Positions 9,235 to 47,815 of a DNA stretch of 64,000 bases are shown one piece after another (the stretch's first letter is position 1; the number at the start of each line of letters is the position of its first letter). This DNA comes from Cyrtodaria siliqua (Eukaryota > Mollusca > Bivalvia > Adapedonta > Hiatellidae). Location of the stretch: NCBI GenBank assembly GCA_037043455.1, contig JAWPHD010001421.1, positions 124,001 through 188,000 of the forward strand, in the 5' to 3' direction. The translations under genes were made by a program, and so were the position numbers. The notes beneath the pieces are model-generated. The model was given only the letters and a program-made list of their open reading frames with translations. It did not search any database and was not told the origin of the DNA.

Positions 9235-10280
9235 ATATAAAGATATAACTATTAAAAAATAAGGGATGATAAGGTGTAATATAAACTATGTATGTAAATC
9301 AACAAATGCCCGTCAACGGGTATATAAACAAGTAAATATATATAAGAACACATTATAATGATTTATATAGTCTGATCTCTTTTAGGAAATCTAGAACAAG
9401 ACTAAAATCTACAGTATCAAATAACTCTTTCATTGTATTAACATTGTAGTACCTTTGACGCATAGGATCAAAGTCTACACATTCCAATAAGATGTGTTTG
9501 ACCGTTAACGGTGCAAAGCAGGGTATACATTCTGGTAATTGCTCACCTTGTAATAAATATGAATGAGTATAAGGTGTATGCCCTATCCTGCACCGGGCTA
9601 GGACAACTTCCTCTCGACGAATGGGTCTACTAGAAGAACGCCATTCTCCGAGTAACGGTTTAATTGAATGGAGTTTATTGTTAACTGACAAATCCCAAGC
9701 GGTTTGCCAAGAGTTACGAATATATGTGTTAATACAACTTTTAAAATCAGTATAAGGTAATTTGGTATTAGATATATGTAAATCTAATGCTGCCTTAGCA
9801 GCACTATCAGCCAGCAGAAAATAATAACATCATCAATTATAAGAGAATTGTACTTTTCTAAAAGTTGAAGCACGACTGGGTTATCATGTTTCATATTACC
9901 CAGTGCTTGAAGAAATGAAAGGGAATGAGAAAAGATTACAAAATGGTCATCATCAGATTCCTGAATATAATTTAAGGCAAGTTCAATTGCCTTAAGTTCA
10001 GCTGAAAAGATAGAGGCCTTGTCAGGCAGGCGGCTCTTTATGCTGTGTTTGTGAACAACAGCTGCTGCAGCTACCTTATCTCCATCTTTAAATTTGCTTT
10101 GAAAGACAGTAGGGTCTGTACTGGATTTGTTATTATTACAAAGATCAAAAATAATTGTTGGTGTTTCCAAAGTCCACGGTGGAATTTGTGGTACTTTGTA
10201 CTTGGCAATCAAATTTAGGTCGATTTCAGTGTCTCTTAATTTTGGTTTAATACAAAGACCAAATGGTGGAATGGCCGCAT
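9235..10280 (-). pseudogene. 5'-truncated non-LTR retrotransposon tail with RNase H domain (I/Nimbus-like), inactivated
   Basis: The minus frame from about 10280 to 9784 encodes an RNase H fold: FKDGDKVAAAAVVHK (first Asp), FSAELKAIELAL (Glu), then VIFSHSLSFLQAL. The third catalytic Asp (FSDS in the second copy) is His here. At about 9825 a 37-bp deletion relative to the copy at 47253-47289 removes the PSHVGRHGND motif and shifts the frame. The C-terminal frame then continues from about 9780 to 9353 with HTPYTHSYLL and CVDFDPMRQRYY, typical of LINE C-termini of the I group. A 3' UTR is shared with the second copy to about 9235. No upstream RT is present, so the 5' end is truncated, as is usual for LINE insertions. 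Confidence 0.85.
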
Positions 10281-10324
10281 AATGCTATAACTTAGTATAA
10301 GAAATCCCAAACCAAAATTATAGA

Positions 10325-10935: not shown

Positions 10936-11222
10936 GGACGCTGACGCCGGGGTGATTACAATCATAAGCTCTCTTACTCTTCAAATAGTCAAGCTAAAAA
11001 CCTACATTTCACCAATAATATATTTAAACCTATGGTAGAATAACAAAGACAAGTTGAAAACTCAAATTTGTATTTAAATATATGCAAGCAGATTTAAAGT
11101 CAAAATGATACTGGACTAATAAATCAAGAGGCTAATTTCAATCCTTAATAAAGACTTCAAGATTGCCATGTGACTCTTTAATTGTACATTTTTGAATAAA
11201 TATTGCTAACAATGAAGTGTAC

Positions 11223-11380: not shown

Positions 11381-14300
11381 CTGTTGAGGAATTTAGCACA
11401 AAATGGATATGCAAATATTTTTTCTAGGACTATTTTTTGTTTTTAACAGGTCAAACATAAACAAACTTCTGAAAACACTGATATACTTACCATCTTAATC
11501 ACCAAGTAGTTTTGTCTGGCAGCATCTCACAAATACAAAGTTAAAGATGAATACACCCGCTTAAATTCTAAGACAAATGAAAAATATCTTACGGGACAAA
11601 AATGTGTTAAGAGACGCTACGCCATAAAACGTTACGGACAGCATGACTCGTATATAGCCCCCACTTCACTCTGCGAAAGCGGGGTATAAATATGTGAACA
11701 CAACACAAGTTCTTTTAAGAGCTGATGGCAGAAATACACCACCATACACAACAGAAATACACCACCATACACAACAGCCAATGATTAATACAACACAGTA
11801 CAACAAATAAATACGTGGAGATGTGCAACCAAGTATTAAGTGGACACGTCAAACAAATTCAACAAGAGTGTCCATTGGACACAAAATACGCCCGTCGAAA
11901 GTGGATCATTTGTAACTGTGATAACAGACGGATAGACGGACAATGTCGCGACATAATACAAATTCCGTTGTTACCAGGGCGATTGGTCTGGTTTTCGAAC
12001 TTGACCGAGTTTCATCAAGATTGAAAAATAAATATTCAAGTTATTGAGTGGACATCATCAAAATTGTCAATTTTCAATAATTAAAGGGCCATAACTCCGT
12101 TGTTACCGGGACGATCTGGCTGGTTTCAATAATTAAAACGCCATTACTCCGTTGTTACCAGGGCGATTGGGCTGATTTTCGAACTTGACCCGAGATATTA
12201 TGCCCATAAACATTATTTTCGAGTTTCCTAAGGATTAAATAATGTTTGTTCGAGTTAAAGAGCGGACCGTTAAAATTGTCAATTTTCAATAATTAAAGGG
12301 CCATAACTCCGTTGTTACCCGGGCGATTGGGCTAGTTTTCAAACGCGACTGAAATATTATGCCCATAAACATTATTTCCAAGTTTCATAAGGATTGGATA
12401 ATATTTGTTTGTGTTAGAGAGCAGACATCGCAAAACTTAACAGACAAACGGACGGATGGACAACGTTACATCATAATATGGGCGGGCGTATAGAAATGTG
12501 TTATCTGTTATCAAATGAATTTAAATGAAATGAAAAAATTAAACATACCAGACTTATACATGTCTTTTCTTTCTTTAACCCCTTTGCTTACCATTTCGGT
12601 AATTCCTTACCATTAATTCCTGCACTATTTAAGCATACTGCACTCTTACTGTGCGAGGTCTTGCTCTATTTATTAAAGCATACTGCACTCACTGAGCAAG
12701 GCCTCATACTATTTAAGCATACTGCACACTCACTGAGCGAGGCCCTGTACTATTTAAGCGTACTGCATACTCACTGAGCGAGGCCCTGTACTATTTAAGC
12801 ATACTGCATACTTACTGAGCGAGGCCCTGTACTATTTCAGCATACTGCATACTTACTGAGCGCGGCCCTGTACTATTTAAGCGTACTGCATACTTACTGA
12901 GCGAGGCCCTGTACTATTTAAGCGTACTGCATACTTACTGAGCGTGGCCCTGTACTATTTAAGCATACTGCATACTTACTGAGCGAGGCCCTGTACTATT
13001 TAAGCATACTGCATACTTACTGAGCGAGGCCCTGTACTATTTCAGTATACTGCATACTCACTGAGCGAGGCCCTGTACTATTTCAGCATACTGCATACTT
13101 ACTGAGCGAGGCCCTGTACTATTTAAGCATACTGCATACTCACTGAGCGAGGCCCTGTACTATTTAAGCATACTGCATACTTACTGAGCGAGGCCCTGTA
13201 CTATTTCAGCATACTGCATACTTACTGAGCGAGACCCTGTACTATTTAAGCATACTGCATACTTACTGAGCGAGGCCCTGTACTTACTGAGCGAGACCCT
13301 GTACTATTTAAGCATACTGCACACTTACTGAGCGAGGCCCTGTACTAATTCAGCATACTGCACACTTACTGAGCGAGGCCCTGTACCATTTAAACATACT
13401 GCACACTTACTGAGCGAGACCCTGTACTATTTAAGCATACTGCACACTTACTGAGCGAGGCCCTGTACTATTTAAGCATACTGCACACTTACTGAGCGAG
13501 GCCCTGTACTATTTAAGCATACTGCACACTTACTGAGCGAGGCCCTGTACTATTTAAGCATACTGCACACTTACTGAGCGAGGCCCTGTACTATTTAAGC
13601 ATACTGCACACTTACTGAGCGAGGCCCTGTACTATTTAAGCATACTAACTGAGCGAGGCCCTGTACTATTTAAGCATACTTACTGAGCGAGGCCCTGTAC
13701 TATTTAAGCATACTGCATACTTACTGAGCGAGGCCCTGTACTATTTAAGCATACTGCACACTTACTGAGCGAGGCCCTGTACTATTTAAGCATACTGCAC
13801 ATTTACTGAGCGAGGCCCTGTACTATTTAAGCATACTGCACACTTACTGAGCGAGGCCCTGTACTATTTAAGCATACTGCACACTTATTGAGCGAGGCCC
13901 TGTACTATTTAAGCATACTGCACACTTACTGAGCGAGGCCCTGTACTATTTAAGCATACTGCACACTTACTGAGCGAGGCCCTGTACTATTTAAGCATAC
14001 TTACTGAGCGAGGCCCTGTACTATTTAAGCGTACTTACTGAGCGAGGCCCTGTACTATTTAAGCATACTTACTGAGCGAGGCCCTGTACTATTTAAGCAT
14101 ACTGCACTTACTGAGCGAGGCCCTGTTCTATTTAAGCATACTTACTGAGCGAGGCCCTGTACTATTTAAGCATACTGCACTTACTGAGCGAGGCCCTGTA
14201 CTATTTAAGCATACTTACTGAGCGAGGCCCTGTACTATTTAAGCATACTGCACATACTGAGCGAGGCCCTGTACTATTTAAGCATACTTACTGAGCGAGG

Positions 14301-17300
14301 CCCTGTACTATTTAAGCATACTGCACACTTACTGAGCGAGGCCCTGTACTATTTAAGCATACTGCACATACTGAGCGAGGCCCTGTTCTATTTAAGCATA
14401 CTTACTGAGCGAGGCCCTGTTCTATTTAAGCATACTTACTGAGCGAGGCTCTGTTCTATTTAAGCATACTTACTGAGCGAGGCCCTGTTCTATTTAAGCA
14501 TACTTACTGAGCGAGGCCCTGTTCTATTTAAGCATACTTACTGAGCGAGGCCCTGTTCTATTTAAGCATACTTACTGAGCGAGGCCCTGTTCTATTTAAG
14601 CATACTTACTGAGCGAGGCCCTGTTCTATTTAAGCATACTTACTGAGCGAGGCCCTGTTCTATTTAAGCATACTTACTAAGCGAGGGCCTGTTCTATTTA
14701 AGCATACTTACTGAGCGAGGCCCTGTTCTATTTAAGCATACTGCACACTTACTGAGCGAGGCCCTGTACTATTTAAGCATACTGCACATACTGAGCGAGG
14801 CCCTGTTCTATTTAAGCATACTTACTGAGCGAGGCCCTGTTCTATTTAAGCATACTAACTGAGCGAGGCCCTGTTCTATTTAAGCATACTTACTGAGCGA
14901 GGCCCTGTTCTATTTAAGCATACTTACTGAGCGAGGCCCTGTTCTATTTAAGCATACTTACTGAGCGAGGCCCTGTTCTATTTAAGCATACTTACTGAGC
15001 GAGGCCCTGTTCTATTTAAGCATACTTACTGAGCGAGGCCCTGTTCTATTTAAGCATACTTACTGAGCGAGGCCCTGTTCTATTTAAGCATACTTACTGA
15101 GCGAGGCCCTGTACTATTTAAGCATACTTACTGAGCGAGGCCCTGTTCTATTTAAGCATACTTACTGAGCGAGGCCCTGTTCTATTTAAGCATACTTACT
15201 GAGCGAGGCCCTGTTCTATTTAAGCATACTTACTGAGCGAGGCCCTGTTCTATTTAAGCATACTTACTGAGCGAGGCCCTGTTCTATTTAAGCATACTTA
15301 CTGAGCGAGGCCCTGTTCTATTTAAGCATACTTACTGAGCGAGGCCCTGTTCTATTTAAGCATACTTACTGAGCGAGGCCCTGTAGTCTTTCTCGTCCTG
15401 CTCTCGTAGGTAGTGGGTCAGTGACTGCAGGTCTGTCATCTTGTCCGATGGTGCTGTAATGGACGTATATTATGTAACACGTTGCACCAAATACAACTAG
15501 GCCAAAAATAGTTTCATTCTCGAGCATGTCTTCATTTTTGTTTTTGAAAAAAGGCAAGCATCTAAAGTAATCATCCGGAAGTAAACTTGAACGTCAAGGT
15601 CAAAATAATAAATTGATGTCATCTAAAATGCTGGTTTTCGACATTAAGTCGGGTTTTATGGGGTGTCCAGGTAAATAGCTCTATTGAAATAATGGCTTAT
15701 TACTTAGAGGTTAATATACGGGCGTGGTGTGCCTTTTGTCCATAATGGCACACCTAGTGCAGTAATGGCCCAAGGGATTTATCGACAAAAGGCACACCAT
15801 GGCCGTATATTTGCCTTTTTATTACACACCTTACTATAAATGAATAAGAACAACAGCAGCATTTTTATGACAAAATACATTGATATGTGAAAAAAAGCGG
15901 TGCAATTTAAACATATAAAAAAAATAGGTGTTTCCTATTGCATGCTCTAAAAAAATAGGGTAGGTCAGTAGGCATTTTCGTTTTTTTTTGCTTTTTTTGG
16001 AGCAAGATATTGTGATATTCTACATATATTTATCTCATAAACCCCCTACAAGTTGATGATACAACTAAAAGTTTCTCTGTGATGTCAGTTTACCTCGATA
16101 TATGTTTAATAAATCATTGTTCAGAACAAACTGATTTTTTTTTTTTCATTAAAAGTTTTAGGGTCGGCCCCTTAAAAATAGGGTCGGTCATGCCACCGGA
16201 ATCACAGGTATTATTTTTTTTGGCCTAAGTAGCATAAGATGCAAATAATTATTTGGCAAATAAATACATTATATTAAATGAACAAATTGTGTTCAATTAG
16301 TTTCCTACCTTGGCCGTTTTTAAAAACCACATCTTTCACTTTAATGATATGTTTTTTTGTGCTGCTTTCAAGTTAAGAAAATCGCTTAAATGTACGACTT
16401 CACGAGTTTTCAAGGATAAAATATTAAATAACAGGTGAAACAAATGATAATCTGGGTTGTTTTAGAAGTTGTTCGACACATCAACACATTAATGAGCTTT
16501 TATTTTTAGAGCACAAGGCAGCCTGTCGATCTCATGCACCGTTGTGTTGTTTTACGTACAAAATAATGGTAATCAATTATATGGTCCAGCAAATTTTTGT
16601 CAGCTGATAACATGGCCGAAAAAACAACAATATTTTATTTTGCAAAAAATAGCTCTGGCAAAATAATATACATGATTTCATAGCAATATGGTGAGTTGAA
16701 ATTTTATGCACCGACCAAAATTTGCTAGTGCATAACAAAGTTAATTTCTACCTCTGCCACACCTCCCTACTTTTTTTAATGTGATTACTGGTGTGACCAA
16801 TATTCTTTTTTTTGTTATGGTCATCAGAATTATTATTTGATGTGTTTTTTTGTGATGCCAGATCCCCATCCAAACCTATACATTTAATTCTGGAAAGAAT
16901 GTTCAATACTTACACGGTGATCTAAATGACGACGACAGTGAGAGTCTTGACCTGATCCCACTGCTATCCATACTAGAAATAGACGCCCCTGGTGAGTAGG
17001 CCAGACTCGGGGAGAACGACATGTTGGCAGAGTATGATGACATGTTACTATGCGAGCGACTGGCACTCTGAAATGATATTAATTATTGTTACTTAAAAAT
17101 TCAGAGCATATGGTGACATGTTCGAAGACCTGTACTCTAAAACGATATATAATACTAGGGCTATTTCATTAAAATGTACATGGGACCCAAGGAAGGCACT
17201 TGTGAAATTGAACATCCACCCTTAGATGTAAAATTTAGTTTAAAGAACGGAATATAAAAAAATAGGGTTTATCCATAGATCGAGGGCATAGTGTAAAACT

Positions 17301-20223: not shown

Positions 20224-23200
20224 TTGGACAGTCTCGCGCTTCTTTTCTCCCAATTTTCTTGAAAAAAGCCCTGGATGCATGTCATAGCGGAGATCGGCGT
20301 GACCTTTATTTCAAAAAGTAGGTCACAGCCATCCGAAATTTTGCACATAAGGAACATTCTGGTGAAGTTTGGTGAAAATCCTGCAAGAAAGAAGCAAGAT
20401 ACGCATGTCGTAGCAGAGACCGGAAAGAAGCAAGATACGCATGTCGTAGCAAGACCAGACTTGACCTATATTTCATCGAAAGTATGTCGCAGCAACCCAA
20501 AATTGTGCATGTGATGTTGGAATATACAATGAACATTTTGATAGAGTTTGGTGAAAATCCTGCATGTAACGAAGAAGATATTAAGTAATGAAAATAAGAC
20601 ACATGGCAATATAAACGAACGAACAGACCTGAAGATGAACTGACACACATACACTTGGATGATATTTTGATTGCTAAGTCGAGATCAGTAAACAGGTTCA
20701 AAAAAGTGTGATACCTTACTCATAACAAAAGTTACTGAGCAGAAACCATTTTTTCTATTTTTAGTAACAGTGACCTTGACCTTGAATCCAGTTGCTCCAA
20801 ATAGAATCCCAACCTTTCTTTCCATATAAGCTACCAACCCAGCAAGTGTCGCCATAGTCCCTCACTCCTAACAAAAGTTTTGAGCCAAAGCCATTCTTCG
20901 ATTTTTAGTAACAGCAAACTTAACCTTGATTCCAGTAGCCCCAAATGCCATATCAACCTTCCTTTCCATATACGCTACATACCCAGCAAGTTTTGTCACA
21001 ATACATCCCTCCTAACAAAAGTAACTGAGCAGAAACCATTTTTCTATTTTTAGTAACAGTGACCTTTATCACAATGGCCCCCAAACACAATCCCAACCCT
21101 CCTTTCTATATAAGCTACATACCCTGCAAGTTTCATTGCAATAACTCCTAACAAAAGTTATTAAGCAGAAACCACTTTCTATTTTAGTAACAGTGACCTT
21201 GACCTTAAACCCAGTGACCCCAATTGCAATCCCAACCTTCCTTGCCACAGAAGCTACCTACCTACCCTGCAAGTTTCGTCACAATACCTCACTCCAAACA
21301 AAAGTTATTGAGCAGAAACCATGACTTTGACCCAATTTTCCAATATACCATATTGCAGATTAAAAAGTCAAGGGCCGTAACTCTTGTGTTATTTGTCCTA
21401 TTTGGATGCTTTTCGAACTCGTCCAAGCTTTTGGGAAAAGTTTTAAAAAAATTGGGTGGAAAAAAAAAGGCCGATCGTTTTTAAATAAAGACGGAAAATA
21501 TAGCAATTTTAACTAAATCAAGGGCCATAACACCAGAGTTACTGGTCCGAACTGGCTGGTTTTCAAACTCGTCCGAGCTTTTATTGATATCAACAATCTG
21601 GTAAAGTTTGAAAAATATTTGATGAAAAATGAAGGCGCTATCATGTTAACGAGGCAAAAAAAGTTAACAAGACAGATGGACTGACCGACGACGGACAACT
21701 TGCCATCCCATAAGCTCTGCTGGCCTTCGGCCCAGAGAGCTAAAAATCACCATATTTTTATTTGAAAATATAATCGGACACAGACAAGCAAAAAGAGTTT
21801 TAAAATACGAAAAGTATTGTTAAAAATTATTTTTTAAAGCATAAATTATGAAATATTGTTAAAATCTAACTTTCCTGTTTTCTACACTCACCCTGTCAAA
21901 GGATAAATGGCCTCCAGTGGAGTTAGACTGGAAAGAGTTAGCAGGGCTCGCGTAGCTGTAGGACCCAGAGAACGACCCCATGTTGGTAGGTGTCACATGA
22001 CCTAGACTGCTCCAGGGGCTGGAGGATGGTGAGTATGCAGTCTGGCTGCTGGACGGGGAGCTGGAGAACACGAGACTGCGATCACCGTCAGACAGTGTGG
22101 GGGACTTGACTGGCGATAACATGAATCCAGGATCTGGAAATACAAGAACAATTTATGTTCAAGCTTAAATTTTTATTCAAACCTTTTGGGTGAAATTATT
22201 TAGTACAGTTCTACCTTTTTGCCTCGTAAGCACGAAGTTATTAATTACTATCTGCCATTTTGGAAAGATTTAAAGGTGGAGTTTAGTTTTGATTATTCTG
22301 TCCTTATGGGGAGGTAACTCACGACTGGAATTACACATACTTTAAAGGCACACATGGTAATTTTATGTTTGTAAAACTCATGCCGTTACATTCTTTTTTC
22401 TACATAAGGCCATAATAAATTAATTGCTAGTTTCTCATCTAATTTCATCTCAAATTAGGGGCGGGGGGTGAAATTTTATTTTTTATTTTATACGACAAAT
22501 GGAAAATGGCCTCGGCACAAGGTAAAAATAGTAAAACATACTACTGAGTACTTTCAAGATTGAAAACACATTTATTTTTAATAGTGTTTCATACTTAGAG
22601 CATTTTTTTTTTATTAATATTTTTTTTTTTGGGAAGAAATAAAAATTACCGGGGCGGCATAAATAAACGGGGCCGGCGAGGATGAGAATCTAGCAATTAA
22701 TTTATTATGGCCTAACACGCACATTTGAAAAATCATTATAAATAATTGTTTGAATTGAAATGAATTGGGATTTAACGCGCACCAACACATGAAAGGTTAT
22801 ATGGCGCCTAGCAGGCATTAACATGACAGGCTCATCCTCCATGTACATCGAGATAAAATATGGAAAATGGGCCTAGAACCTTCTCACTCTGAACTGCAGA
22901 GTTGCTGCAAATTCTATCGTAGAAACTCCATTTATGCTGGAGTCACGTTTATTGTTTTTCTGCCACTGCTCTTTTGATGTGGCACCTGAAACAATGCAGG
23001 GATCATGATGAAGACCTTTAATGAACATGAACAAAAAATGATAAAATGAAGATGAATTTGGGGAGATTCTACCCCTCTGCCTAACCCTCCAAAGGGATCT
23101 GCAGTGGCCCTTTTCTTTGCCCGGTGACCAAACAGGGTCCCCGGGAACCACATGGGTTCAAAGCAAATTGTTTTTGCATATAACTAATTGCTGCTTATTG

Positions 23201-26200
23201 AACCATAATTTATTCAAACCTACGGTAGAATATCGAAGAACAATTTGAAAAATCCCAAATTATATTTTTTTATTCAAAAATATTTACGCTAGTTTAAAAG
23301 TCAAAAGGATACTGAATAATAAACAGGTGTTACTTTAGTGCTTTAAAAATGCTTCAAGATTGTCATGTGTCCCTTTAATTAAGCTACATAAACTAGAACT
23401 ATCACTGAAGGTAATGAATACCACCGCTTAAATTTTAAGCCAAATAAAGGGCCAATATTCCATAACAAGACCTCGGTCTAAGGGTGTCTATGAAATATTT
23501 TATTAAATTTGTGCTTAAATGATGTCCACCAAAGACAACACTTCATATGACCAAGTATCAATCAAACAAATAAAAGCGAGGTAATCATAAAGTTACTGAG
23601 GTTAGGTGGTTTAACCAGGGTGTAGTTTTGGGAAAATAATGCAAAACATGACCTTGGTAATCATAAAGTTACTGAGGTTAGGTGGTTTAACCAGGGTGTA
23701 GTTTTGGGAAAATAATGCAAAACATGACCTTGGTATTTTTTTTCATTCAGCGATGTCCACCAATGCCAATAAATCATATGAACACGTATCAGACATAAAG
23801 TGAGGCAATCACTTGAAGTTAACTGAGGTTAAGTTACCTAACTAAAGTTAAGTTTGGGGAAAATAATGCAAAATATGACCTTGACCTTGGTAATTTTTGT
23901 CATTGAGTGATGTCCACCAATGCCAAGAATACATTTGACCAAGTATCAAACAAAGAAAGTGAGGCAATCACATACAGTTAAACCTAACCAAGGCTGTAAC
24001 CTAACCAAGGTTAAGTTTTGGGAAAATAATGCAAAATATGACCTTGACCTTGGTAATTTGGGCAATACGAGATGTCCCTTGACCTAACAAAGCATCTAAC
24101 AAAGTTCTGCGACATAAAAATGTGTTGAATGACAGGATGCGACGAAACGTGACGGGACGCAACGTTACCGACAACGTGATTCCTACATAGCCTCCACTTT
24201 ACTTTGTGAAAGCGGGGGTATTATTATGCTACAATAAAGTCACGGTGCAAACATGAGGATGATTGAAGTTAACTGCAAGGAAACCGGAGACTATAGTTCT
24301 CTTGGCCAAAAAACCTTCACACAGTGATCATAGTTATTCATACCTGCATATCAAGTTTTAGACTCAATTTGTCAGTTCAAAAGTGACAACTCCAAAACAC
24401 CAACATTATTTTTTTAAAACATAAATCTGTAGGTAATTTAGGATTGTGAAAGCATGTAAAAAAGAACATTTTTAAGCCTGAAAAACAATGTAAAAAGGGC
24501 ATTTTCCAGCGCGCAAAAAAATCCAAATGAAACAAAACAAGAGGCCCTGTGGATGCTCTACTGGCTAAAACGCCTCTTATATCAAGCATTGTCGACAAAT
24601 ATCAACTTACCGCTGTCTCTAACACCAAGCAGACGTTTTTGTTGCTGACTGACTTCGACCTGGCCACTGAATAAGTACTGGGATACGTATCTTAACAGGT
24701 CACACGCGACGTTGAGTAGGAAAATAAAACATAATGAAAACTCTGAAATAAAGTAAACAATAAATGGTAGATTGCCTTGATGCTTCAATTGATCCATGTA
24801 CATAAACTGATGAGGGCTGTCTATAAAGTGGGGTACATATGATCAGAAATGTCCTGGGTGTTTAGGTGTACTGATTCAAAACTGATAAATACATGACATT
24901 TTCTAAATTGCCAAAACATAAGGCCTAATATTACTCCTTGTTTACAAGGCGTAATAATTCTGCACAGTAATATATTCTATCCTAGGTTGCGCACCAGGGT
25001 TAATTTAAGTGTTTTAAGCCCAGTTTCATTCGAACTCTATGGTCAATTCTTACACATTTAGCTATGTTGCGCTCCACTCACCCCCATCCACTCGAAAACC
25101 TTTTTCTATTTTTTATTTTATTTATTTTTTATAAATATTTCCGAGTTTTAGTAAATTCTTACACATATAGCTATCTTGTGCACCCCATCCACCCCAACCC
25201 ACCCCCACCCCACCCGCACCCCCACCCACCCCCACCCTAAACAACACAATTCTTTGACTGATGTGACATTTGTATCATTTTTTTCTAGGAAAAATCTGTC
25301 AGCTGCTGTTTACCCATGGGTAACAAAGGTGGGTTGGTAGTTGGTAGGTTGGCACAAGTTTTCCCAAAACAAGACAACTCTAATTTCAGCATTTTGATCG
25401 CCAAGAAGCAATTTCAGTTAAGAGATAAATTATGTACATACACAGACTGAGGGTCTCCTCACTATTAAATTACTCTTAAAACAACCAAAATGATGAAAAT
25501 TTACAAAACTAATTCAAGGAATTAATGTTTTGGGTTGAAAGACAAGCTTGACACCGATGCCAATCGCTAATAAACCCACATTTATTTGAGGCCTGCAAAT
25601 CACAAGCTATGGAAAGTGTATCATGCTGCTCCTCAACATGACTGCGTCTGCAGGGTTACAAATTGTCAACAAGAAGCAACTATGGGCCGACTATAAAATA
25701 ATGTTGGTTTCCTGTTTCCCTACCTAACCACGAAAAAAGAGCTCCAGCAAAAATGTTTTATTAACATTGTTTAACTTTTTTTTTATTGTAACCGTTGCTA
25801 TCTTCAGTAATTTTTGTCTAATTTACTGTCCATGAAAAAAAATATAATAAAAATAACCTACTACTTATACCTACCCATTTATGAAATCCTGGGTCGGGAA
25901 CCAGCAAACAAATATTTTTTTCAAGGATGGCCCCATATTGTATGCGAGATAATACCAAGGGCGTTATGTTTTGTTTTGCGATTGGGGAACAAAATAATGT
26001 ATGTTTTCATAAGTTTCTCAAAAGCTTCTCTTCACTTGGTGTTTTACAAATCAAAATAATTATATAATTCATAAACTTAAAGAGTGAAAACAGCTTGCAA
26101 AGATTTATAAGTTATGCAGATCTATTATTAACTGCAGGATGGCAGAAATGTGCCTCCAAAGAAATAACATTTTAAACAATTTCAAGGGCATTATTACTTA

Positions 26201-32712: not shown

Positions 32713-33850
32713 TAACTACACTGTCATAGATGTGTCTGAAACTACACTGTCATAGATGTATCTGAAAACTACACGGTCACAGATGTATCTGAAAACTACA
32801 CGGTCATAGATGTATCTGAAAACTACACGGTCATAGATGTGTCTGAAAACTACACGGTCAAAGATGTGTCTGAAAACTACACTGTCATAGATGTGTCTGA
32901 AAACTACACGGTCATAGATGTGTCTGAAAATTACACGGTCACAGATGTGTCTGAAAACTACACTGTCATAGATGTGTCTGAAAATTACACGGTCACAGAT
33001 GTGTCTGAAAACTACACTGTCATAGATGTGTCTGAAAACTACACGGTCATAGATGTGTCTGAAAACTACACGGTCATAGATGTGTCTGAAAACTACACTG
33101 TCATAGATGTGTCTGAAAACTACACGGTCACAGATGTGTCTGAAAACTACACTGTCATAGATGTGTCTGAAAACTACACGGTCACAGATGTGTCTGAAAA
33201 CTACACGGTCATAGATGTGTCTGAAAACTACACTGTCATAGATGTGTCTGAAAACTACACTGTCACAGATGTGTCTGAAAACTACACGGTCACAGATGTG
33301 TCTGAAAACTACACGGTCACAGATGTGTCTGAAAACTACACGGTCACAGATGTGTCTGAAAACTACACTGTCATAGATGTGTCTGAAAACTACACGGTCA
33401 TAGATGTGTCTGAAAACTACACGGTCATAGATGTGTCTGAAAACTACACTGTCATAGATGTGTCTGAAAACTACACGGTCACAGATGTGTCTGAAAACTA
33501 CACTGTCATAGATGTGTCTGAAAACTACACGGTCATAGATGTGTCTGAAAACTACACGGTCACAGATGTGTCTGAAAACTACACTGTCATAGATGTGTCT
33601 GAAAACTACACGGTCACAGATGTGTCTGAAAACTACACGGTCACAGATGTGTCTGAAAACTACACGGTCATAGATGTGTCTGAAAACTACACGGTCATAG
33701 ATGTGTCTGAAAACTACACTGTCATAGATGTGTCTGAAAATTACAAGGTCACAGATGTGTCTGAAAACTACACTGTCATAGATGTGTCTGAAAACTACAC
33801 GGTCATAGATGTATCAGAAAACTTAACTGTCATAGATAGATGTATCTGAA
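32713..33850 (+). repeat. 27-bp minisatellite, ~42 units, open in one frame (SENYTV[I/T]DV)n
   Basis: Unit GATGTGTCTGAAAACTACAC GGTCATA (27 bp). Because 27 is divisible by 3, one frame stays open from about 32742 to 33849 and would encode nine-residue repeats with an N-Y-T sequon. No ATG, splice site or flanking exon supports expression: the only in-frame start is GTG at 32839. Variation is limited to ACG/ACT, AAC/AAT, GTG/GTA (silent) and ATA/ACA (Ile/Thr), plus one AAA and one AAG. I treat it as a satellite, not a gene. Confidence 0.9.
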
Positions 33851-44264: not shown

Positions 44265-45770
44265 ATGACGGTCAGTGTACAATGGTAGTTATACTTATTA
44301 CTGGCAATAGTAACTGTAACACTCACGGTCATGTACAGTGGTAGTTATACTTATTACTGGCAATAGTAACTGTAACACTCACGGTCAGTGTACAGTTATA
44401 CTTATTACTGGCAATAGTAACTGTAACACTCACGGTCAGTGTACAGTGGTAGTTATACTTATTACTGGCAAAAGTAACTGTAACACTCACGGTCAGTGTA
44501 CGGTGGTAGTTATACTTATTACTGTCAATAGTAACTGTAACACTCACGGTCAGTGTACAATGGTAGTTATACTTATTACTGGCAATAGTAACTGTAACAC
44601 TCACGGTCAGTGTACAGTGGTAGTTATACTTATTACTGGCAATAGTAACTGTTACACTCACGGTCAGTTTACAGTGGTAGTTATACTTATTACTGTCAAT
44701 AGTAACTGTAACACTCACGGTCAGTGTACAGTGGTAGTCATACTTATTACTGGCAATAGTAACTGTAACACTCACGGTCAGTGTACAGTGGTAGTCATAC
44801 TTATTACTGGCAAAATAGTAACTGTAACAATCACGGTCAGTGTACAGTGGTAGTCATACTAATTACTGGCAATAGTAACTGTAACACTCACGGTCAGTGT
44901 ACAATGGTAGTCATACTTATTACTGGCAATAGTAACTGTAACACTCACGGTCAGTGTACAATGGTAGTTCTACTTATTACTGGCAATAGTAACTGTAACA
45001 CTCACGGTCAGTGTACAGTGGTAGTTATACTTATTACTGGCAATAGTAACTGTAACACTCACGGTCAGTTTACAGTGGTAGTTATACTTATTACTGGCAA
45101 TAGTAACTGTAACACTCACGGTCAGTGTACAGTGGTAGTTATACTTATTACTGTCAATAGTAACTGTAACACTCACGCTCAGTGTACAGTGGTAGTTATA
45201 ATTATTACTGGCAATAGTAACTGTAACACTCACGCTCAGTGTACAGTGGTAGTTATACTTATTACTGGCAATAGTAACTGTAACACTCACGGTCAGTGTA
45301 CAGTGGTAGTTATACTAATTACTGGCAATAGTAGCTGTAACACTCACGGTCAGTGTACAGTGGTAGTTATACTTATTACTGGCCATAGTAACTGTAACAC
45401 TCACGGTTAGTGTACAGTGGTAGTTATACTTATTACTGGCAATAGAAACTGTAACACTCACAGTCAGTGTACAATGGTAGTTATACTTATTACTGGCAAT
45501 AGTAACTGTAACACTCACAGTCAGTGTACAGTGGTAGTTATACTTATTACTGGCAATAGAAACTGTAACACTCACGGTCAGTGTACAATGGTAGTTATAC
45601 TTATTACTGGCAATAGTAACTGTAACACTCACGGTCAGTGTACAATGGTAGTTATACTTATTACTGGCAATAGTAACTGTAACACTCACAGTCAGTGTAC
45701 AGTGGTAGTTATACTTATTACTGGCAATAGTAACTTTAACACTCACGGTCAGTGTACAATGGCAATGAAA
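44265..45770. repeat. 57-bp minisatellite, ~26 units
   Basis: Unit made of GTAGTTATACTTATTACTGG, CAATAGTAACTGTAACACTC and ACGGTCAGTGTACAGTG (57 bp = 19 codons). Long open frames result on both strands, (VVILITGNSNCNTHGQCTV)n on plus and (SVTVTIASNKYNYHCTLTV)n on minus, so ORF length is not evidence of coding. Variants: GGC/GTC, GTA/GAA, CAGTG/CAATG, one 8-bp deletion near 44393 and a 1-bp insertion near 44815 that shift frame. Confidence 0.95.
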
Positions 45771-46740: not shown

Positions 46741-47092
46741 GTATTTTGTGAACATTTAGAACAGTATGACATAAGTGAACACCCTTACTCTGAAAACTGG
46801 TTTGCAGTTCTATTATGCATCATATATATGTAAATGTTGATTAATGAAACAAACTTTACTATTATATATTCAAGCTTTTACATTTAATAGATGGCAAAGA
46901 ATGTTTTTGTTGTTGTTGTTTTTTCATTTTGGCATAGTGCAAGCTAGCGCTTTCTAGAAGAATCTTTTTCATAAATAATTAAAACTTTAATGGCTGACGA
47001 AAAAACAACAATTTAATATGCACATGCTTATTGTGCATATAGACAGTTACATCCTAGCTCATAATGGGCTGATTTTGTTTGTTTGTGTTTGG

Positions 47093-47815
47093 CGGCCTTA
47101 AACGATATTGAATCTGATGATGACCATTTTGTTATCTTTTCTGATTCCCTTTCATCTCTTCAAGCCCTAGGTAATATGAAACATGATCACCCAGTTGTGC
47201 TTCAACTTTTAGAAAAGTACAATTCTCTTATAGTTGATAATGTTATTATTTTCTGCTGGCTTCCAAGCCATGTAGGAAGACATGGTAATGATAGAGCTGA
47301 TAGTGCTGCTAAGGCAGCATTAGGTTTACATATATCTAATGCCAAATTACCTTATACTGATTTTAAAAGTTGTATTAACACATATATTCGTAAGTCTTGG
47401 CAAGCCGCTTGGCATTTGTCAGTGAACAATAAACTCCATTCGATTAAACCATTAATCAGAGTATAGCGTCCTTCTAGTAGACCCATTCGTCGAGAAGAAG
47501 TTGTTCTAGCCCGGTGCAGGATAGGTCACACACGTTATACGCATTCATATTTATAACAAGGTGAGCAATTACCAGAATGTATACCCTGTTTTGCACTGTT
47601 AACGGTCAAACATATCTTGTTGAAATGTGTAGACTTTGATCCTATGCGGCAAAGGTACTACACAAAGAGTTATTTGCTATACTATAGATTTTAGTCTTGT
47701 TTTAGATTTTCTGAAAGAAATCAGACTTTATAAGTCATTTTAGGTTCTTATATATGTATATTTACCTATATTATACATAGTTTATCTTACTACAATATCA
47801 TGATCCCTTATTTGT
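47093..47815 (+). pseudogene. Second LINE tail with RNase H (I/Nimbus-like), 5'-truncated
   Basis: Homology to 9235-10280 starts at about 47093 in the RNase H domain (ESDDDHFVIFSDSLSSLQAL). It keeps the third Asp, PSHVGRHGNDRADSAAK and NTYIRKSW. A frame-breaking change at ~47458 gives a stop at 47464-47466. The C-terminal region continues with at least one more stop (TAA near 47553) and a deletion near 47660. The 3' UTR is shared to ~47815. Abrupt 5' truncation is normal for LINE insertion. No intact RT remains in the window. Confidence 0.85.

Follow-up and report, generated by a model that had tools for sequence, protein, structure and literature searches.

The TMEM209 locus

The window, by which we mean the whole 64,000-nucleotide stretch of Cyrtodaria siliqua DNA analysed here, carries on its minus strand a gene that we identify as TMEM209 by homology. 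Four exons (22133-21892, 17067-16914, 15453-15370 and 11380-11223) join via GT-AG introns to give an uninterrupted 212-aa frame, and this frame continuity defines them. The third, an 84-nt coding exon ending in KDYRASL, is supported by alignment to relatives as well; it bears the repeat array described below, follows the exon at 17067-16914, and is in frame with the exon at 11380-11223 on the other side of the array intron. Two more exons, a first coding exon (31007-30844, placed by eye and with an approximate end) and one with a membrane segment (24742-24611, boundaries by eye), bring the partial protein to 312 aa. The label 'exon 6', which the original prediction gave to the 84-nt exon, holds as a coding-exon number only if a short exon lies unfound within 30843-24742, as phase and P0001 lead us to infer.

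The 312-aa partial protein has 13 homologues at E <= 1e-3, ten from Mya arenaria, one from the coral Porites lutea and two without a source name. Eight have TMEM209-like or TM209-like source names (seven Mya arenaria, one Porites lutea), three Mya homologues are labelled uncharacterized or hypothetical, and PF09786 is precomputed for 7 of the 13. These matches bear out the gene identity proposed originally. A Pfam scan of the partial protein returned no family; the query is incomplete, and TMEM209 C-terminal exons, not found in the window, may lie beyond its edge. Pfam likewise gave no match above cut-off for the gene pieces or for other reading frames in the window, and the partial protein matched no solved structure. 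The ten Mya arenaria predictions (P0003-P0012) are TMEM209-like or contain TMEM209 pieces, and nine of them are assigned to contigs of identical length, which suggests local duplication of the gene or of its pieces.

Alignment with relatives gives KDYRASLS for the end of the array-bearing exon in the window, against KDYKAALS in P0003 from Mya and EYKAALSS in P0002; in P0010 this exon end is missing, and P0013 has diverged there. The conservation of the exon end marks it as old coding sequence from which the array is derived. The reverse, an exon that originated from the array, is excluded by the presence of the same protein end in relatives (KDYKAALS in P0003). The Mya gene prediction P0004 continues past the exon/intron junction as AALSKSANIHLIT, as if reading through the donor, and P0012 has additional residues at the same place; these may be prediction errors or may reflect alternative donors.

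A minisatellite of exon ends and splice donors

At the start of the TMEM209 intron lies a minisatellite that runs on the minus strand from 15385 to about 12626 and, by tandem repeat and motif counts, comprises 74 tandem units, mostly of 34, 39 or 41 bp. Each contains the last 14-16 nt of the TMEM209 exon and the 5' splice donor, followed by an AT-rich tail; the exon part reads CAGGGCCTCGCTCA, usually preceded by TA or AA. TRF reports the region as 12619-15366 at period 41 and 13606-15384 at period 34. The original prediction had it begin at 15370, but the array begins at 15385, inside the exon. It takes up 2743 nt (69%) of an intron of 3989 nt, intron 6. When 11 TMEM209 exon boundaries were checked against 20 arrays, only the donor of the exon ending at 15370 fell inside an array.

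The final 16 nt of the exon, TACAGGGCCTCGCTCA (15385-15370), form the exon-derived portion of each unit. At a tolerance of 3 mismatches, this 16-mer has 72 matches in the window, all on the minus strand and all within 12734-15385, against 0.09 expected and a maximum of 2 over 100 shuffles. The array is therefore real, and chance resemblance to the exon, the objection raised along with the prediction, is excluded. A 14-mer search, again with up to 3 mismatches, finds 73 copies; our total of 74 includes the true exon end and one decayed copy added by hand. That every unit repeats the exon end to the letter is true of 39 exact occurrences of the 16-mer; another 26 read AACAGGG. The GT is intact in 73 of 74 copies, and GTAAGT is present in 61. 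One of the two donor strings expected to follow the exon end, GTAAGTAT or GTAAGTGT, does so in 57 of 74 copies, though not in the rest, and GTAAGTAT occurs in 43 of 74, so that the near-identical U1-complementary sites foreseen originally are indeed there. Among the 73 pieces into which the array divides, 35 are 34 bp, 30 are 41 bp, 5 are 39 bp and one is 21 bp long, and the far end adds two irregular pieces (84 and 64 bp).

The donor at which the exons join in one open frame (GTAAGTAT, 15369-15362) is the first member of the array, as predicted. Any transcript spliced at a later donor would gain the four residues SKYA and then meet a TAA at 15358-15356, a reading that also stands from the original prediction. 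At the far end (12632-12616), the last AAATAG is followed by TGCAGG, which resembles the TACAGG of the exon.

Other repeats and mobile elements in the window

A 57-bp minisatellite (44268-45762, 26 copies) contains GTRAGT 25 times on the minus strand, where its unit carries CCGTGAGTGTTACAG, which combines a donor-like with an acceptor-like motif; it has long open stretches in one frame, and no exon was recognised at either edge. A 27-bp minisatellite (32714-33837, ~42 copies) is open on both strands, for 365 codons (minus) and 369 codons (plus), as is possible when the unit length is divisible by three. By eye, plus-strand frames at 1-2067 resemble LTR-retrotransposon integrase and reverse transcriptase. 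Also by eye, 9356-10284 and 47065-47463, on opposite strands, encode very similar RNase H-like protein sequence and probably represent one mobile-element family; the former matches Pfam RVT_3 weakly, short of the cut-off.

Growth and origin of the array

Copies differ from the exon end and donor at 0.17 sites per copy on the exon side (above 14000, n=40) versus 0.62 on the far side (n=34). A single 34-mer type accounts for 24 identical copies, all within the 40 on the exon side. The exon side consists mostly of 34-mers and the far side mostly of 41-mers, which have one additional AGTATGC copy, and the last units are decayed. No recurring runs of at least 3 unit types were found in the array. 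The gradient in copy differences suggests that the latest growth adjoined the exon. At the true junction the donor is followed by exon-side 34-mer sequence, which suggests concerted evolution of the array and the start of the intron.

We consider it probable that the array is a minisatellite of the kind called a 'mirage' in amphioxus, produced by duplication of the exon-intron junction and carried as a passenger, with the first donor mainly used. It would have been founded by tandem duplication of a stretch that took in the exon's last 16 nt and the adjoining 18 or 25 nt of intron, perhaps by slippage at the microhomology of the exonic TACAGG with the intronic TGCAGG, although truncation of the last unit would also account for the TGCAGG at the far end. 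Unequal exchange, slippage or conversion could then have enlarged it. The first donor would be the one mainly spliced because it adjoins the exon's own acceptor and enhancers, and the array would be removed as part of the intron. Rare use of a later donor would give a product that is cut short at SKYA and could undergo nonsense-mediated decay. The repeats themselves would have no selected role. As a control, six of the eight larger arrays in the window lack GTRAGT on either strand, which we count against the idea of a passenger; the GTRAGT-bearing exception besides the TMEM209 array, the 57-bp array at 44268-45762, counts in its favor.

Donor strength, accessibility and conservation

The first donor is predicted to pair with U1 at -8.2 kcal/mol, a value equalled or bettered in 61 of the 74 copies, itself included. 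The other TMEM209 donors span -12.7 to -5.7 kcal/mol (-9.3 at 24610, -12.7 at 21891, -7.5 at 16913 and -5.7 at 11222), which makes the first donor of the array one of middling strength. In predicted local accessibility it ranks 36th of 73, or 28th of 73 with a wider window. By these predictions the first donor is neither stronger in U1 pairing nor more open than other array donors, and if donors are equal in both respects, position would have to decide among them.

Counted in a fixed register over the array copies, differing cells number 13 of 444 (2.93%) in the donor hexamer. For the exon part the figure is 15 of 1036 (1.45%), and for the tail it is 26 of 1022 (2.54%), where 13 of the 26 differences come from two aberrant tails. 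Over the 74 copies the hexamer is thus not less variable than the rest of the unit, as selection on the donor would require. Set against exon and tail without the two aberrant tails (13/444 vs 28/2030), the donor is the more variable (Fisher p 0.037), in a test whose power is low because array copies are non-independent.

Could the array have a function?

Of the functional readings, the one that survives best, although we think it unlikely, is that splicing does take place at several array donors and lengthens the exon by at least one unit, and that such unproductive SKYA splicing reduces the output of TMEM209, array length being the dial. Precedent comes from human IFI6, where two repeat units further downstream serve as donors (PMC4526556). 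The U1 pairing of 61 of 74 copies, equal to or better than that of the first donor, fits such use, as does the single common stop that precedes all later donors, and the P0004 prediction from Mya reads through the same junction. However, amphioxus mirages reportedly give rise to no aberrant mRNA (PMC3087553, PMC3902484), and donor conservation is not seen across copies. Less likely still is the stronger version, in which some transcripts are spliced at one of the 73 later donors and copy number, expected to vary among animals and cells, sets the amount of productive TMEM209 mRNA.

A quite different possibility is that the units, being quasi-palindromic, pair with one another in the RNA and hide their donors from U1; tolerance of the array would then be understandable. 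Self-pairing of UAAGUAUGCUUA is predicted at -11.6 kcal/mol, versus -8.2 for U1, and the exon with the first units (15453-15000) folds at -147.6 kcal/mol, with a z of -3.94 against plain shuffles. That z is not upheld under the fairer null of tiled-unit shuffles, which are as stable in 45 of 200 cases for the 34-mer and the 41-mer alike, and we dropped the notion of a special RNA structure. Masking would also hide the first donor. We give this explanation very little credence.

The original prediction suggested that the array could act as a U1 decoy or buffer or protect the intron from early cleavage. In such a role the pre-mRNA would hold U1, shielding a long gene from early cleavage (telescripting), or U1 would be titrated. 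The string GTAAGTAT, present in 43 of 74 copies, is complementary to the 8 nt at the 5' end of U1. Such sites are uncommon elsewhere, with only 1.2% of the 3640 minus-strand GT sites outside the array pairing with U1 as well as the first donor does. Motif aside, we find no positive sign of these roles. The donor hexamer has no extra protection relative to the rest of the unit, and under local folding about three quarters of 211 GT sites in the neighbourhood are predicted to be more open than the median array donor, though tiled shuffles of the same composition often fold as stably. Between 31007 and 11223 the gene has 46 AATAAA and 14 ATTAAA motifs; the array intron contains one AATAAA, at 12674 inside the array itself, and no ATTAAA. 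With a single AATAAA in the intron, there is little early cleavage for the array to prevent. The cellular U1 pool is large, and the sites on one transcript are few beside it. This is among the least plausible of the readings, slightly behind mutual masking, and functional proposals for the array are at present unsupported.

Least probable is that the array is an assembly artefact or a mobile-element repeat adjoining the exon by chance: repeats are prone to mis-assembly, one amphioxus mirage was seemingly aberrantly assembled in the draft genome (PMC3087553), and the copy number here could be wrong in the assembly, but the copy differences form an ordered gradient, and an adjoining insertion does not fit a unit that itself includes the host exon end.

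Comparison with known boundary repeats

The array provides a natural experiment on donor choice, as about 60 donors with equal predicted U1 pairing stand behind one exon. It is also raw material for the idea, drawn from amphioxus globins, that boundary duplications can make new introns.

The original prediction regarded a minisatellite founded on an exon-intron junction as undescribed. That part does not stand, because both the amphioxus mirages (PMC3087553, PMC3902484) and human IFI6 (PMC4526556) precede it. Mirages are minisatellite-like tandem duplications of exon-intron boundaries, reported in globin genes and Adh3, with AG/GT signals in many units and with length and somatic instability (PMC3087553). 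As far as tested in these accounts, they leave regular splicing undisturbed (PMC3087553, PMC3902484). Cases beyond the globins BflGb6 and BflGb9 and Adh3 include troponin C and PGBD5 (PMC3902484). Units of the Adh3 mirage measure 10-72 bp, and the BflGb6 cluster, with 6 and 3 units in its two haplotypes, shows concerted evolution inside with the edge excluded (PMC3087553, PMC3902484).

The TMEM209 array has the same anatomy. Its unit spans the exon-intron boundary, its units contain splice signals (GT in 73 of 74, GTAAGT in 61 of 74), and, in the one haplotype available, it appears homogenized inside with the edge excluded. On these three anatomical features, read from sequence, the array belongs to the mirage kind. 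It differs from the amphioxus cases in occurring in a bivalve, in TMEM209 and at a donor boundary, and its 74 units compare with the 6 and 3 of the two BflGb6 haplotypes. Human IFI6 (6-16, G1P3) also has a minisatellite, reportedly the subject of a 1995 paper by Turri, Cuin and Porter. Its units likewise contain donor copies, two downstream units act as donors, and three mRNA species result (PMC4526556); in TMEM209, by contrast, splicing at any later donor would run into a stop. Human segmental duplications, too, have internal tandem repeats at their exon-intron boundaries; these may give rise to novel introns and alternative splicing, lie in recent primate paralogues and average 4 copies of 30 bp (PMC2812944). 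The TMEM209 array is likewise a minisatellite at such a boundary, but has 74 units.

Among the matches listed for literature naming bivalves or molluscs, no splice-site repeats appear in titles or abstract starts, which is weak evidence of absence. The mirage phenomenon, described in cephalochordates and paralleled by a single human gene, appears to extend to a mollusc, and apparently in this new phylum it reaches a larger copy number than in the amphioxus and human cases compared.
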